Assembly (NCBI GenBank): GCA_003116975.1
Contig: BGKB01000090.1
Coordinates: forward strand, 124,001 to 188,000
From: Aurantiochytrium sp. KH105
Taxonomy: Eukaryota > Sar > Bigyra > Thraustochytrida > Thraustochytriidae
Direction: 5' to 3'
DNA length: 64,000 bases
The first letter of the stretch is position 1; the number at the start of each line of letters is the position of its first letter. The notes below the pieces were generated by a model. The model did not search any database, had not been told where the DNA came from, and saw only the letters and a program-made list of their open reading frames with translations. A program made the position numbers and the translations under genes. Below, in pieces: positions 39,130-50,707 of the stretch.

Positions 39130-39922
39130 CTATTTGGTCTTTTTAGATTCCGGTATAGTGGCTTCCTTTTCGGCATTGACTTTGTCTTCTTTCTTCTTCG
39201 TCGCTGCTGTATCCCGCCTATCTTTCTGGGCAGCAGGCACCTCTGGAATGGTGTCGCGCGGCCTGAACACGGCATACACCGCTCCGGCGCCAACCAGAAC
39301 GCCTGCGAGGGCTGCCAGCGCGGCCTTGAGTGGCTCTTTGCGCAAGGTCACGATCATGCGCTCATATACAGCAGCATTTGCGTCAAGAAGAGAGGCTTCG
39401 GCAGGAACAGGAACACTGTCAACATCCTTGGGGCCTGTACGATGTTCGGCGATGTATCTGGCAAACTCGGCCATGGTCTCGACATTGCGTTTTCCTCGGA
39501 ACTTGTACATTGTGCCTTGATGAAAGTACAAGAGAGTCGGAAAGCCCTTGATCTTAAAGCGATGCGCCAAGGCTTTATTTTTCTCCGCATTTACCTCTGC
39601 TACGTTGATCTCACCCAGGAGTTCTTCGCCCAAGTTTTCCCATGCCGACGCCATACGCTTGCAATGGCCGCACCATGGCGCATAGAACTTGACAAACCTG
39701 CGCGTCGCAATCGTCCACGTAAGCGGTGCCACCTGCGCGGCCCCTCCTTTGCTCCCTCGTTACGTACCAGTCACCCGTCGTCGCACCCGTCGCAGCTTGC
39801 GTCAATTGCTCAAAGTTGTCTTCTCCGAGCTCGATCACGCGGCCCTCGGCGCCATCTTGCGCCACGAATAGCACGCAAAAGACAAGGGCCAGGAACACCG
39901 CACGCATGGCGCCGCCGAGCAT
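39130..39922 (-). CDS. Membrane-anchored ER thioredoxin/PDI with KKXX tail, two exons
   Basis: Exons 39922-39768 and 39697-39130 join across a 70-base GT-AG intron (donor GTACGT) to give 240 residues. A signal peptide (residues 1-26) is followed by a thioredoxin domain with the PDI active site WCGHC (Cys61 and Cys64) and cis-Pro in GFPTLLYF. Then come a membrane helix (PLKAALAALAGVLVGAGAVYAVF) and a Lys-rich cytosolic tail ending KKTK, a dilysine KKXX retrieval signal. This predicts a type I ER oxidoreductase like the TMX group, making or isomerising disulfides in the lumen. The splice restores the Trp-Phe-Val-Lys-Phe run directly before the active site, which supports the intron. Confidence 0.88.
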
Positions 39923-43850: not shown

Positions 43851-45405
43851 GGCTCTCCTTGACCGCATTGGCATCGACTGTGGGTCTACTGTGATGTAAG
43901 CGTTCAATCCATTTTTTTTTCCTATTGATCGCCTTTCCCCCTTAGACTTTTTCCCCAACCTCTGTGAAACTATCCGACCGAAGTCGCCTTGTACCTTAAA
44001 GTATAGGACCTCGGTTGGAAATATGCCCTCACATTCGCAAGTGCGGTAACTAGCTGTGGGAAACCTCGTAAGCTATTGGGCTACACAGCATTTATTCCTC
44101 CCCAAATGTGCCGATCCTACGTCCAAAGCGCGAGAATAACATTTAGACAGTGGAAATGAGAAACTTGTGCTGTGGCTCTTGAATCATTTCCGTCCTCAAA
44201 AGATAAAAGACAAGACAGCGTACAAGCTTTCAGCCTGGTTGTCTCCCTCTTTTCTCGCGCGAAGCCTTTTTTGTTGGAAAACATCGTCCACATTTTTATT
44301 GATCATTTTTTTTAAGGAAATTCTTGCGCTTGCTCTCAGGAAAAAGTATACTCCACTGGGCTGCACATGCCTGCATTTGCTATGGAATGTGCTGCCTGCA
44401 TTCTCGAGACCCCTTACGTTGTGCTGCACACGGACCACTATTTGTGCATGCATGCTTTCTGTGAAACAGGGTAACGACGTTAAAGCACAACTAACCTCTC
44501 TAGAGAGTCTCCTTTTGCCGGTTCATCGCGACCAGCGTTCGATCTTGAAACTTAGTAGCTCAGGACGATCACAACAAGGTAAGTCCAACGTCGTGTTCAA
44601 CATGCGGAAGCTCAGAGATCACAGTGCTGACCAATCAACAACTATGCAGAGCCGACCGGAGGTCTAGAGCAATCAATACTTTAACAAGAAAGTATCAGGT
44701 CAATAGCAAGCAACTCATCAGGAACAATCAGGCCAAAAGGTACTTCATTCCCGAGTGGACTCAAATTTATTTAAAAAGAGCCTTATCCGGTCGCATTCGT
44801 CCGTTCAAAATAGGTCAGAGCTAACATGCATTGGCATCGATGGAGACGCGATCAGTTTTTCCTTGTCTCCCCACGAAGACATTTTGCTTTCTGAAGATGT
44901 GCATTCTTTTCGCATGGATTTTTCCGTTTGTTGTTGGGAACTGTCGAGTCTGAGCGTTTTCTATCAAATCTCGCGCATGTTTGCAAGACAAACGTAGACG
45001 CTAAATTCCCGAGCAAAGATGGATCTGTATGTCCCTCTTTTCCTTTTCATCATTAGCCGCCGTCGATTCTGATGCTCCTGAACGGCTGGTCGGGTCGCCC
45101 GCCCGCCCGCCCTTTGTCATTCCCTCCATGATTCACTCATGCGAGATCGGAAATTGGTCGCTTTCGCTGCACGCCAAAAAGGCATCTCTACTTCTACTCC
45201 GCGCGCGCTATCTGCATTACCTGCTTCGATGGCGCGTTGCGCAGCGGGCACGTCGTCCGAGCGCTGTGCGTCGAATGAGCGAACAGAAAAAGAAGAAAGA
45301 AAAAAAGGGCATCAATCATCGTCGTCACGACGAAGGCTCAGCTTGCCAAAGCCGTAACGAGAGAAATCGAGAGACGAGACGCAGGCGCACGAAGGAGAGG
45401 ACACG
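43851..45405. other. Lower-GC intergenic region before the selenoprotein
   Basis: About 43.9-45.0 kb is visibly richer in A and T than its surroundings. Frames here, such as 44167-44667, start without ATG and have no family signal. The right end is GC-rich again and probably carries the leader of the selenoprotein W gene. Confidence 0.5.
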
Positions 45406-45841
45406 ATGGTGGCTACGATCAACGTGCAGTATTGCGGCGGCTGAGGTAGGTTACGCGCACGCACATACGCAGCGCGCGGGCGGCGCGGCCTGCGCGGCCC
45501 TGCGCGGTCTCAACGCGGGAGTGCAAGATGGCCGGCCTGAAGCAAAAGCTAACGCGTGAACGACGACGGCGACTGCCGACGACCACAACAAACGTGGCTG
45601 CACAGGGTACAGCAAGTACTTCCGGGCGCTCAAGCAGCAACTGGAAGAGGAATTCGGCGACGATGTCAAAGTCGTAGGCCAGGAGGACCCGGGCACGACG
45701 GGCAACTTTGAGGTGACGCTCACCGAGACAGGTGACCTGCTCCACTCCAAGTCAACGCGTGGCCAAGGCAAATGCCAGTCGGCTGCTGAGGTTCAGGCCA
45801 TCGTAGACAAAATCCAGGACTTCCTGGACAGCAAGGAGTAG
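45406..45841 (+). CDS. SELENOW: Selenoprotein W with in-frame UGA, two exons
   Basis: Exons 45406-45445 and 45606-45841 join across a 160-base GT-AG intron (donor GAGGTAGGT, a CTAAC branch-like site, acceptor GCACAG). They give a 91-residue protein if the TGA at 45442-45444 is read as selenocysteine. The active-site motif is CGGU (Cys10, Sec13) in VQYCGGUGYSKYF, followed by the Rdx-family core FEVTLTETGDLLHSK. Length and spacing match selenoprotein W, a small thioredoxin-fold redox protein. Reading TGA as stop would leave 12 residues and lose the conserved remainder. A SECIS-like hairpin lies about 110 bases past the TAG stop. A plain pseudogene is unlikely because the rest is intact. Confidence 0.88.
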
Positions 45842-46578
45842 ATCCTCGATTCCCCGCTCTGCGACATGTTTTGTTATCCAACAATTACGACATGGCGCGA
45901 GCAAATCGCTGCGGCATGCAGCGGTACGCTTTTGGCCCAAATAAGATCGAGCCTCTGATGACGAGCGCAGGTTCCCAAAGCTTTCATTGTGCCGCGTATG
46001 ACAGCCGGCACAGGGTCCTGCACTTCGACCAAGAAGAAAGATTATACTTTTCGCTTCATCTTTTTGCGCAAAGCGCACCACCGTAAATCCGCAAATACAA
46101 TATCATTCTTTTTTTTTTTCACGAACAAAACAATGTCTTGATCTTCCACAACAGACAACTGCAACACAATTTCATTCTTATTTTCCATGAAAACACCCCA
46201 TTTCGTTCTTAACTTTTTCCATGAACAGTAACAACTCACAACCGTTGACTTGAGTCTTCACCTTGCCCCAAAACACCAAAACGAACCAATGTCGTACAGA
46301 TTCATTATCGCAAATTTTTTTAAAGCTGTCTGAGAAGCAAGTAAAGATTGTAAAACCCCAACCAACAAGGCAAGAGATCTTGCAGAGCAAAACGACTTCA
46401 CGTGGTGAAACGAAACGTGTCGATCGACAATGCATTCCCAAAGAATCTCGTCCTCGTGATGGCGAAATACCGCAAGCAAACTCGTTCTTGCCGACGGATC
46501 GTGTTCGCAAAGGCGTTCTCAAGACACCCTCTGACATTAGCCGCCACATTGTTTCCATGACAACCTCGCCGTCACCCA
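45842..46578. other. 3' region of selenoprotein W and of cullin-4
   Basis: Convergent 3' ends. Apart from the SECIS-like hairpin nothing else is called. It has T-rich and A-rich patches (for example about 46110-46125) and a short GC-poor stretch at 46100-46330. Confidence 0.5.
45951..46009 (+). promoter_or_regulatory. Candidate SECIS element in the selenoprotein W 3' region
   Basis: The element needed to decode UGA as Sec appears here. Helix I pairs 45951-45953 with 46007-46009 and 45955-45957 with 46002-46004. The core quartet is formed by ATGA (45958-45961) and TGA (45999-46001). Helix II pairs 45962-45963 with 45995-45996 and 45965-45970 with 45987-45992, allowing G-U. The apical loop (45971-45986) contains AAA at 45977-45979, where SECIS hairpins carry conserved adenines. 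I paired this by hand; no folding program was run. Confidence 0.6.
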
Positions 46579-48840
46579 TTATGCCATATACTTGTAGGCA
46601 CCATTCGGGGGCGGCGCGGAGCGCTCAAGGTATTCGCGGTCAATTAGACTTGCGATGCGCTGTTTGATTAACTGCGCAGTGGCGGGAAAACGCAGCTGCT
46701 TGAAGATCTCCTCGAGCAGCTCCTGGTGGCCCAACGCCTTGCGTGCCTTCATGATGCGCACGATTGCGGCATCAATCTGATACTGGCGGTCCTGTTGCAC
46801 GCGCTCGTGCGTCTCTCGGTTCTCCGAGGTGGTTTCCTTGATTTGGATCGAGTTGATCTTGATACGAAAGCGGTCCGAACGAAAGGCACTGTTCATAACG
46901 AAACGGTCTGTAGGTTTGATCGGGTCCCGCACGCTGGCCTTGGGCTCGCGCAAAAGTAGGCGCGCCTGGGGACTTCCCAGTGAAAGCAGCGTGCGGTTTA
47001 GCTCGCCTTCTTCGAGACCCGTGCGCTCACGCAGTACGCTTGCAGTGAACTCCTGGCCCCCCGCCGGGAGCTCGTTGTACAAAAGAAGAACGATGGCCTG
47101 ATAAAAGGAAACCTCAAGCTCCTTGCGGCCTCCCGGTAGGTCCGCGCGAAGAATGCAATGACCAAGAGAATGCTGCCAGGTGAGACGGCGGCCCTCCTTA
47201 AATTTGCTCTTGTAGAATTTTTCAAAGGCGCTTTCGCAAGCCGACATTCGCTCCGGTAACTTGAGGTTTTTCATGACCGGGTAAGCTGGCCAATTGCTTG
47301 TGCTAAGCACGTTGACATGAATTTCCGTGTCAAAGCCGCGCTCCTGGTAGAGGGGATCCTTGGCGAACTGGGTCATGGTCTCTTTAGAAATGTCCATGTC
47401 CTTGAACATGCCCTCGAGGCGGTTCGTAAAGCGAGACCCGCACTCGGTCTTGAGCTTGGTGATCATCGAGCGCTCAAGGTCCGTGGAGGCCGACCGTCCA
47501 AGCAAGAGACGCTTGGCGAGGTCCTTCTTGTAAAAGGCCTCAAAGGTATCCTTAGCGCTGAGAAAGCGAAAGAGTACAACGACCTTTTCCAAGAGAGTTT
47601 CGACGGCGTCCTCGCCGCCCGCGCCCTTGACGCCGGAGCGCAGCTGGCGGTCAATGTACTTTGCAATGAGTTCTGCAGGCCGGTTGCCACGCGAGTTGAG
47701 AAAGGCCTCGAACGCATCGCGAATCGTGCGATCAAAGTCCTCGTTACCCTGCATGGCGGTACGCTGAAGCTCCATGAGGTCTTCCATGAGCTGCAGCAGC
47801 GTTGGCACCATTTCCTTGTCCTTGGATTCGTCCGTCTGTACAATTTGCGCGCCGCGGCGCTTGACGTGCGCCGACAGGGCTGCGCGCATCTGCGAAAGCG
47901 CGTCGACGCGCTTGAGCAGCGCAAACATGCGCCCGAGATCCTCGGCACGTTTCTCGCGAACCAGCGTGTCAAAGCCCTTTTCTAACAAGACGGACACATG
48001 CTCGCTGATGAGTTCCTTTTCGCAGGCGCGCACGAGCGGGATGCGCGTCTGCGGGTCGAGATAGCGCGCCACGCGCTGCTTTTCCTCTTGCAGACGGCGA
48101 TTCACGTGCTGCAGGTAGTCGGCCACGGGGCTCTGCTCGAGCATGCTGCTGGACTCGGCGCGATAGAACTCGCGTGTCTCTTCGAGAAGTTTAGGCTCAA
48201 ATTTTGACTCGTATAAATCAAGAGCCACGAGCATGCGCACCACGCACGTGCCCGTGGACTGGTTTACGGCCTCGCCGGCGCGTTCGCGTGCAATGAGGTC
48301 CAGGAAGCCGCGGATTACTTTACTTTCCACCTCGGGCGCCGCCTCCAGGTACTTGCGGAACATGCGGAGACCAATGTCCCAGATGGACCGCAGCGACGCC
48401 TCCGCAATGACGTACGAGCGGTCTAGGTAGAGAAAGATACTGCGAATCGAGTGCATTTGCTGGCAGTAATTTTGCCACATGTCCGTGACGAGCTCCAGAA
48501 AGGCGGCGTGGTCCGGGGTCTGGCCCACGAGTCTGCGCAGAGACGCCTCGATATGCTTTTCCAAGACACCCTCGAGCCGCGTGCACAGCGCCGCCGCCTG
48601 CTTGTGCATGCACAGGCCCTCCACCATGTGGTAGAGCTCCTCGCGGCTCTGCTCCACGGCGCGCTGCTCCTGGATCGCGCGCACCGCCGTCTCCAGGGCA
48701 TTCCAGCTCGACTCCAGGTAGTCTGCGGGCAGCGCAGGGCGAGCCTTGCGCAGCGTGATCTTCAGCCGCTTCGCGCCGGGCCCGCCCGCGCCGCCAGCGC
48801 CCGCGCCGCTCCCGCGGGCGCCTCCGCGGTGGCCAATCAT
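46579..48840 (-). CDS. CUL4: Cullin-4 type ubiquitin ligase scaffold
   Basis: This 753-residue protein is a cullin, the scaffold of a cullin-RING ubiquitin ligase. The best match is CUL4, which binds the DDB1 adaptor at its N-terminus and RBX1 at its C-terminus. N-terminal helical cullin repeats (residues about 30-350) are followed by the cullin homology domain (MDISKETMTQFAK, then NVLSTSNWPAYPV). The winged-helix end contains IVRIMKARKALGHQELL, where the Lys of VRIMK is the NEDD8 site. The length matches CUL4. The start ATG at 48840 gives MIGHRGGARGSG and KRLKITLRK; the frame upstream has no convincing domain and includes a repeat-coded poly-Cys run. Confidence 0.93.
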   Translation of the reverse strand: MIGHRGGARGSGAGAGGAGGPGAKRLKITLRKARPALPADYLESSWNALETAVRAIQEQRAVEQSREELYHMVEGLCMHKQAAALCTRLEGVLEKHIEASLRRLVGQTPDHAAFLELVTDMWQNYCQQMHSIRSIFLYLDRSYVIAEASLRSIWDIGLRMFRKYLEAAPEVESKVIRGFLDLIARERAGEAVNQSTGTCVVRMLVALDLYESKFEPKLLEETREFYRAESSSMLEQSPVADYLQHVNRRLQEEKQRVARYLDPQTRIPLVRACEKELISEHVSVLLEKGFDTLVREKRAEDLGRMFALLKRVDALSQMRAALSAHVKRRGAQIVQTDESKDKEMVPTLLQLMEDLMELQRTAMQGNEDFDRTIRDAFEAFLNSRGNRPAELIAKYIDRQLRSGVKGAGGEDAVETLLEKVVVLFRFLSAKDTFEAFYKKDLAKRLLLGRSASTDLERSMITKLKTECGSRFTNRLEGMFKDMDISKETMTQFAKDPLYQERGFDTEIHVNVLSTSNWPAYPVMKNLKLPERMSACESAFEKFYKSKFKEGRRLTWQHSLGHCILRADLPGGRKELEVSFYQAIVLLLYNELPAGGQEFTASVLRERTGLEEGELNRTLLSLGSPQARLLLREPKASVRDPIKPTDRFVMNSAFRSDRFRIKINSIQIKETTSENRETHERVQQDRQYQIDAAIVRIMKARKALGHQELLEEIFKQLRFPATAQLIKQRIASLIDREYLERSAPPPNGAYKYMA

Positions 48841-49747
48841 CTCTTCTTCCTCCTCCGCGACCACCTCGGACCGGCAGCAGCAGCAGCAGCAGCAGCAGCA
48901 GAGCACGGACCTTCTCTGGAGCCTTCTCCACTCGGCCGCCTCGCGCTGCCGCGCCTTCCCGCCGCCGTCGCTGCCGTCCTCGGCGTCGCCAACGTCGCCC
49001 TCGCGCTCGGCCTCGACGGCGATGATCCGCTCGCCGCGACCGCCGGCCGGGTCTGATCGAGAGCGGGGGCGTGGGCGAGGGCCGCGCGGGGGGGAGGGGC
49101 GGGCTCGGCTCTGCTCTTCGCGCGGGTCCTTCCTCGCGCGGGCGCCGGGCGCGCAGCCGGGGTCTGCGCGCGCGCCGCTCGCTCCTCCGCTCGGCTTTGC
49201 TCGCGTGGTTTTTCCTCTCTCGCGCGGCGCGGCTGCGCGGATTTGAATGACTGGGGCAACCACCGCCGCGCTTCCGCCTTAACGCCCCGCTTCGCGCCCC
49301 AGCTCCCGCGCCTCTGGTTTAAGGCGCCTCTGGACGCAGATTGCGAATACCGCGAATATTCTGCGTCTACCGTAAGATAACGGGTTTAAGAAGAGAGGAA
49401 ATCACGGGATACGATCGTTCCATATCTGTTTCTTGGCGTGGGAGAAGAACGGAAACCGGGGGCCAAGCAGGGCCGGTAGGCGAGGATATACTGTGTAGTC
49501 GAGGATAAGATGCGCGACGGGAGCTGCCGCGGCCACGGACGCGCGCGAGGCTTTTTGCAGAGACAGGCAAACACGAGTCGCCGAGACCTCGAGACCGAGA
49601 CCTCGAGACCTCGACCTCGACCGAGACCGCGGAGCGCGAGCCGGCGAGCGCGAAGCGGAAAGGCGCGCGCGTCGGAAACTCTGCCTTCGCGGCCTGCGCG
49701 CGGGTCTGGGACCCGAGGTTGGAGCGAGCAAGAGAAGCCCGAGCAGG
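48841..49747. other. Divergent promoter with CAG array
   Basis: The cullin and PTGES2-like genes are transcribed away from each other across about 900 bases. A CAG array at 48874-48902 lies just upstream of the cullin start and would read as poly-Cys if the cullin were translated from further 5'. The PTGES2 side has GAGACC/CGAGAC units (49575-49630). No gene is supported. Confidence 0.55.
48874..48902 (-). repeat. CAG/CTG trinucleotide array near cullin start
   Basis: About nine CAG units on the plus strand, equal to CTG on the cullin's sense strand, within its presumed 5' leader. Confidence 0.95.
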
Positions 49748-50707
49748 ATGCGGGCTGCGACCAAGGCGGCTGCGACGCGTCTGGCGTCGACGCTGGCGCC
49801 GCAGCAGCGTCGCGGGCTGGCGTCCGGGGCTCGCAATGCACGCGAGGCGAGCGGCAGCAGCAGCTCCAGAGGAAGGACGGCGAGTCTGGTGAGCGGTGCC
49901 GCCGTCATGGCGACGACGGCGGCCTGGATCGAGCACTCGAGCGCGGCGCGAACACTCGCCTCGGCGGCGATGCCGACGGCACGGGCCATCACCGCCGAGG
50001 AGCCGCTCAAGCTGTATCAGTATGACGTGTGCCCGTTTTGCAACAAGGCACAGACGTTTCTGGAGTTTCATGCTATCCCGCACGAGAGAATCGAGGTGAA
50101 TCCGCTCACCAAGGCCGAGATCAAGTTCTCCTCGTACAGAATGGTTCCCTTCGCCATGGTCGGCGACACCCAGATCAACGGATCCGGGGAGATCATCAAG
50201 ACAATGCTTGGTGAGGACAAGCCGCTGTCGGCGTCAGAGGAAAAATGGTTCCAATGGGTCGACGATCACCTTGTGCACGTGCTACCCGCGAACATTTATC
50301 GCTCGCCTGGCGAGGCGCTCCAGGCGTTCGATTACATTACGAACGAGAGCAATTTCTCGGCAGTGCAAAAGCTGAGCATTCGCTATGCGGGCGCATTGGC
50401 CATGTTCATGATCGCGAAGCGATCCAAGAAAAAGTACAATCTCAGTGACGACCCGCGCCAGGATCTCTTTGAAGCCGTCGACAAGTGGGCTGGGGAGGGT
50501 TTGGCAGGCAAGCGCTTCCACTCAGGCAGCGACGTTCCGGACACGGCTGATCTCGCCGTTTTTGGAGTCCTTCGTTCCATCGAGGGCAATTATGGAACTT
50601 GGAAAGATTTGTCCGAGAAGGACCTTGCGCACAAGGATGCCTTTTGGACATGGTACAAGTCTGTCAAGGAGCAGGTCGAGACTAATCGTGCCAAGATTGG
50701 TCTTTAA
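49748..50707 (+). CDS. PTGES2: PTGES2-like glutathione-binding protein, mitochondrial
   Basis: This 319-residue protein resembles prostaglandin E synthase 2, which has a glutaredoxin/thioredoxin-like domain followed by a GST-type C-terminal domain. The active-site motif CPFC sits in YDVCPFCNKAQTFLEFHAIP, and the next segment EVNPLTKAEIKFSSYRMVP is a strong match. The C-terminal helical domain ends at VKEQVETNRAKIGL. The first 90 residues are Ala/Arg/Ser-rich, consistent with a mitochondrial presequence and possible membrane anchor. Single exon. The physiological reaction in a protist is unknown; a glutathione-dependent redox role is likely. Confidence 0.88.
   Translation: MRAATKAAATRLASTLAPQQRRGLASGARNAREASGSSSSRGRTASLVSGAAVMATTAAWIEHSSAARTLASAAMPTARAITAEEPLKLYQYDVCPFCNKAQTFLEFHAIPHERIEVNPLTKAEIKFSSYRMVPFAMVGDTQINGSGEIIKTMLGEDKPLSASEEKWFQWVDDHLVHVLPANIYRSPGEALQAFDYITNESNFSAVQKLSIRYAGALAMFMIAKRSKKKYNLSDDPRQDLFEAVDKWAGEGLAGKRFHSGSDVPDTADLAVFGVLRSIEGNYGTWKDLSEKDLAHKDAFWTWYKSVKEQVETNRAKIGL

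Follow-up and report, generated by a model that had tools for sequence, protein, structure and literature searches.

The window, that is, the whole stretch of 64,000 nucleotides analysed here (G000:C90:124001-188000), carries on its forward strand a two-exon gene which by its sequence encodes a selenoprotein W (SelW), followed by a SECIS-like hairpin in the 3' region. The coding part of the gene is organised as follows:

45406 to 45445, forward strand: coding part of exon 1, with the ATG at 45406; it encodes MVATINVQYCGG-U plus the first base of the next codon, and 0 of 40 positions differ between haplotypes.
45442 to 45444, forward strand: TGA, the predicted selenocysteine codon, residue 13 of the protein and last residue of a CGGU motif; in the PF10262, TIGR02174 and 2npb matches this codon is part of the redox motif.
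45446 to 45605, forward strand: intron GTAGGT...TGCACAG, 160 nt long here and 159 nt in the partner haplotype, which retains the splice sites; the two copies disagree at 16 of 159 aligned positions, one gap aside.
45606 to 45841, forward strand: coding part of exon 2, with the TAG stop at 45839-45841; 5 of 236 positions differ between haplotypes, all of them synonymous.

A single G separates the TGA from the donor GTAGGT (from 45446), and the acceptor ends at 45605. When 45406-45445 and 45606-45841 are joined, a stretch of 276 nt is obtained, which translates as MVATINVQYCGG, a stop, GYSKYFRALKQQLEEEFGDDVKVVGQEDPGTTGNFEVTLTETGDLLHSKSTRGQGKCQSAAEVQAIVDKIQDFLDSKE and a second stop. The predicted spliced product has 91 residues, starting with MVATINVQYCGGU and continuing beyond the junction with GYSKYF. 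Its CGGU motif occupies residues 10-13, with the UGA in the CxxU position, as the second redox position.

With Cys typed for Sec, the spliced protein scores 52.9 bits against PF10262 (cut-off 22.6) and 55.1 bits against TIGR02174, the SelT/SelW/SelH family (cut-off 34.2). Exon 2 by itself gives 31.5 bits with PF10262, so that splicing adds 21 bits. The best match among solved structures is 2npb, the mouse selenoprotein W (E 6.7e-11); the next solved match has an E value of 0.12. The alignment with 2npb crosses the redox motif, where the chain of the structure reads SGAC. The protein stays under the cut-off of the Campylobacter equivalog NF041051 (28 against 88). In the genome, the spliced protein has six matches, namely two haplotype copies (E 1e-47) and four others with E 0.003 or weaker. 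Judged from these comparisons, the gene appears to be real and, among SelW, SelT and SelH, nearest to SelW, the SelT of this genome being a separate gene. Compared with known selenoprotein W (SELENOW, PF10262 Rdx, TIGR02174), it has the same CGGU at 10-13, 91 residues and a match over the whole domain; no substantive difference was seen, the intron being located here one base after the Sec codon. The original prediction had placed a TGA at the Sec position of the CXXU motif one base ahead of a strong donor, the rest of the family core in a second exon, and the junction at 45445/45606, and had assigned the gene to selenoprotein W; its reading of the gene agrees with the present one in all these respects. 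That this junction is used in vivo is suggested by homology across the splice site and by its conservation between haplotypes.

The assembly that was searched comprises 76 Mb in 367 contigs. Family searches mostly gave paired loci, and in the four pairs compared by BLAST the pieces were 89 to 95% identical; therefore, the assembly is taken to hold two haplotypes. The partner of the SelW gene of the window lies on contig C49 (locus L005), where the UGA is preserved along with the splice sites at either end of the intron. If the changes in exon 2 were placed at random, 5 of 5 synonymous differences would be expected with P 5e-4. Downstream, six differences fall in the first 63 nt past the stop, and 27 of 466 positions differ in 46111-46578. 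The two longest runs free of differences are 45591-45729 (139 nt, mostly exon 2) and 45906-46035 (130 nt, in the 3' region), and the SECIS-like element (45958-46029) lies within the latter. The 5' leader 45301-45405 (1 difference in 103 positions, plus 14 gap positions) and the segment 46037-46105 are well conserved too, and conservation alone therefore fails to single out the SECIS.

Several open frames flank the gene. The convergent one on the reverse strand (46579-49263, 894 residues) is cullin-like by eye, and its end bounds the 3' region of SelW. Also by eye, the frame at 39130-39732 on the reverse strand resembles a PDI/thioredoxin-like protein (FYAPWCGHCK), and that at 49748-50707 on the forward strand a glutaredoxin/GST-like protein (YDVCPFCNK). 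The flanks of SelW might form a redox neighbourhood.

Several genes for selenocysteine synthesis and insertion were found elsewhere in the genome. tRNA-Sec matches of 73.5 and 70.2 bits (gathering score 47) are located on contigs C170 and C78, and ARAGORN confirms them with anticodon TCA. A third match, below the gathering score, is tRNA-Ser according to ARAGORN. SepSecS (PF05889, E 8e-121), selenophosphate synthetase (TIGR00476, E 9e-81) and the eukaryotic SelB/eEFSec domain (PF21208, E 2e-27) were each found on two contigs. By its gene content, then, this genome would use selenocysteine. On both haplotypes (C78 and C170), tRNA-Sec and selenophosphate synthetase share a contig, the distances between them being some 66 and 63 kb. 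The synthetase is of the Cys form, RCGGCGAK (loci L020 and L021; G000:C78:197424-198374 and C170:105340-106290). Its open frame is long (1181 and 1070 residues, of which about 855 were inspected), and the N-terminal part resembles by eye a pyridine-nucleotide/NADH dehydrogenase. NADH-SPS fusions are reported from bacteria and scattered protists in a paper which explains those of protists by horizontal transfer (PMC4561486).

The SECIS-like element, whose first base lies 117 nt downstream of the SelW stop codon, has these parts:

45958 to 46029, forward strand: whole element, of type 2 layout (AUGA, helix II, AAA, mini-stem, GA), supported by scans and fold and lying inside the haplotype-invariant run.
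45958 to 45961, forward strand: 5' quartet AUGA; the elements of GPx, SelT and TrxR start likewise with RUGAC.
45963 to 45975, forward strand: 5' arm of helix II, 13 positions of which 11 are paired in fixed register; the unconstrained fold shifts pairs at both ends.
45977 to 45979, forward strand: apical AAA, from scan and fold.
45988 to 46012, forward strand: apical mini-stem (helix III), UGUGCCG / CGGCACA, whose loop holds AUGA 45998-46001.
46013 to 46025, forward strand: 3' arm of helix II, paired in fixed register.
46027 to 46028, forward strand: 3' quartet GA; its G pairs with C45962 in the unconstrained fold.

Three candidates were found when the 900 nt from the SelW stop were scanned, and 45958-46029 is the best of them. 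With a spacing of up to 85 nt allowed, AUGA 45958 closed with GA 46027-46028 gives -27.0 kcal/mol. The fold of 45958-46029 has a z-score of -2.80, 3 of 200 shuffles being equally good. Folded without constraint, the same piece forms the same helix and mini-stem, with the inner end shifted by one and the outer end closed by the pair C45962-G46027, and the same hairpin core is found when longer pieces are folded. The quartet bases outside helix II, the AA near the apex and the mini-stem fit a type 2 SECIS in sequence and fold; the non-Watson-Crick pairing of the quartet is predicted.

SECIS elements are usually drawn with a lower helix I. The candidate for this helix in SelW gives -4.9 kcal/mol, a value equalled by 88.9% of 2000 random pairs. 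When the eight copies of four genes were examined in this way, none was unusual (the best was GPx with 23.5%; SelW gave 89 and 93%), the power of the test being low. The 5' helix I arm of SelW pairs better with the 3' arms of GPx, SelT and TrxR than with its own. It seems that helix I is either short and interrupted, or little relied on in this lineage. In this respect the elements would differ from the usual form of type 2 SECIS. The Rfam model SECIS_1 (RF00031) gave no match in 45200-46600 (E up to 10), in loci L001-L006 (E up to 1) or genome-wide (E up to 1).

Other genes of the same genome offer a comparison for the SelW hairpin. One in-frame TGA is present in 2 of 6 Rdx matches, which are SelT (reading CTS-TGA; L003 and L004); in 2 of 8 glutathione peroxidase (GPx) matches (ATT-TGA in residues; L018 and L019); and in 2 of 16 matches of TGR/thioredoxin reductase (TrxR; L049 and L050), where the last codons are GC-TGA-G-stop in both copies. 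Within the matched stretch, which excludes for example the C-terminus of SelO, no TGA was found in MsrA (4 of 4 matches), SelO (2 of 2) or Sep15/SelM (1 of 1). The genome also contains a second Rdx gene without TGA (L001 and L002, YCCKCKWGLRAAW..., 88 bits with PF10262). Besides, the UGA-containing GPx match is about 3.5 kb from the SelO match in both haplotypes (G000:C24 and C13).

The scan that found the SelW element also finds one in GPx (AUGAC...AAAA...GAC, -25.6 kcal/mol) and one in SelT (GUGAC...AAAAA...GAU, -30.4 kcal/mol). In SelT, another candidate, ATGAC (p=2289 of the oriented locus), is without apical AA, and GTGAC (p=2213) was taken instead. Thus the SelT element begins with GUGA and that of SelW with AUGA. 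Pairs were counted by script in a fixed register, MAFFT alignments of the elements being misregistered. Over the 13 positions of helix II, 13 pairs form within GPx, 13 within SelT and 11 within SelW, which has the fewest among its sister genes (two mismatches), against 4 to 8 when arms are swapped between genes.

These common features were written as a descriptor: [AG]UGA with a single base behind it, 11 or more pairs out of 13, AA at 13-16 nt past the UGA, and a single base before GA, 45-80 nt apart. It was applied to 711 kb of single strand, made up of the window and the loci (L006, which duplicates the window, was left out, and some loci overlap). The eight sites found are two in SelT, two in GPx, two in SelW and two others. 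If two sites per 711 kb are taken as the chance rate, one expects about 0.002 sites over the approximately 740 nt from the SelW stop to the end of the open frame of the next gene. An energy-based descriptor (-25 kcal/mol, 11 pairs) returned 15 entries, six of them from SelT, GPx and SelW, and three in 400 kb of arbitrary loci. Since SelW, GPx and SelT were already known when the descriptor was framed, it was also tried on thioredoxin reductase, previously unexamined, for which its limits were relaxed to 10 pairs and a spacing of 40-85 nt. Exactly one site per 1-kb piece at the gene end was found in both copies, with 13/13 and 12/13 pairs and -28.6 and -22.8 kcal/mol. Between the copies one pair turns from A-U into U-A, another from U-G into U-A, and L050 has lost a third; the double change from A-U to U-A is as expected if pairing were under selection. 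The z-scores are -3.35 for GPx, -4.36 for SelT, and -4.84 and -4.34 for TrxR. Compared with SelT, GPx and TrxR of the same genome, SelW shows a common 3' hairpin layout and one in-frame TGA, the protein families being different.

The original prediction had included a hairpin with an ATGA/TGA quartet and an apical AAA in the 3' region. A SECIS-like element does lie downstream of the gene, in its predicted transcript region, where the absence of any SECIS would have told against the prediction, and its 5' half is the one proposed: ATGA 45958-45961 and AAA 45977-45979. The closing 3' half is not upheld, GA 46027-46028 fitting better. The pairs of that hairpin were unlisted, and its 3' quartet was taken as AUGA 45998-46001 from its end at 46009. 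That the gene is as described and its SECIS is this smaller hairpin, AUGA 45958 with AUGA 45998, is very improbable. It has the same 5' quartet, an upper helix of 7 pairs and a split lower helix of 10 pairs can be drawn (-17.8 kcal/mol summed), and it has a lower helix, which in the longer version is no better than random pairs. Nevertheless, the upper helix accounts for only -8.0 kcal/mol, whereas closure at GA 46027 gives its -27.0 kcal/mol for the upper part alone and agrees with three other genes. The surrounding 81 nt (45940-46020) prefer another fold (z -0.64). In the 128 kb of single strand formed by both strands of the window, 28 ATGA entries score at least as well (itself included, a few sites appearing twice), and with any base before TGA they are 119; the scan behind these counts allowed AA or CC at the apex and a spacing of up to 62 nt. 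Scans with a spacing of up to 60-62 nt ranked AUGA 45998 first in the 3' region, and 85 nt gave GA 46027. In the better fold AUGA 45998-46001 falls in the loop of the mini-stem, and GA 46027-46028 lies beyond the end at 46009.

Two further explanations concern the gene and its 3' block, and both have very little probability. If the UGA were a true stop, a peptide of 12 residues would be produced, or the locus would be a decaying pseudogene; this is the least probable reading of all, as exon 2 beyond the UGA has only synonymous differences (5 of 5), the UGA, splice sites and 3' element are retained on both haplotypes, and the machinery genes are present in the genome. The 3' block might also be conserved for some other cause, for instance as a regulatory RNA or because the convergent reverse-strand gene has its 3' end there, with the SECIS located elsewhere. 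The run 45906-46035, which continues to 46105 after one difference, indeed exceeds the SECIS in length, but 45958-46029 is the best of the three candidates in the 900 nt from the stop and its layout is the one seen in SelT, GPx and TrxR. Hence this explanation, too, is regarded as very improbable, on a par with the smaller hairpin.

It is thus very probable that the locus is a functional two-exon SelW gene, with the hairpin 45958-46029 as its SECIS and selenocysteine as residue 13. Homology and conservation establish the gene structure, and the machinery genes and a hairpin layout common to the UGA genes, all read from the DNA, accompany it. Splicing in vivo would join exon 1, which ends one base past the UGA, to exon 2; the hairpin in the mRNA would serve as the SECIS; Sec-tRNA would be delivered to the UGA by eEFSec together with a binding protein; and selenocysteine would be placed at residue 13, in the redox motif CGGU of a protein with a thioredoxin-like fold and a presumed redox function.

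Type 2 SECIS elements with a long apical mini-stem have been described for Ostreococcus and Chlamydomonas (PMC2375036). The elements seen here share with them the AUGA/GA quartet bases, a stretch of unpaired A residues at the 5' flank of the apex and a long mini-stem. They differ in being without a match to Rfam SECIS_1, in a helix II of 13 positions and in the C after the UGA in four genes. It is possible, and suggested here only tentatively, that the lineage has its own strict SECIS format (RUGAC, 13-position helix II, A run, mini-stem, GA) with little or no helix I. If this were so, standard SECIS models would miss the whole selenoproteome of the lineage. Among the selenoprotein papers listed for stramenopiles, thraustochytrids and Labyrinthulomycetes, and among the first 15 of 606 for oomycetes, none could be tied to this genome.

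The gene described here is a new addition to a known family, and its mechanism is the standard one. It adds a SelW gene in which a single base separates the UGA from an exon junction, in a genome whose gene content points to the use of selenocysteine. From the methodological point of view, manual pairing of a hairpin can succeed for one half and fail for the other, and comparison with sister genes from the genome itself is a good control. The four genes in two haplotypes also provide a working description of the SECIS, which could help to list the other selenoproteins of this genome.
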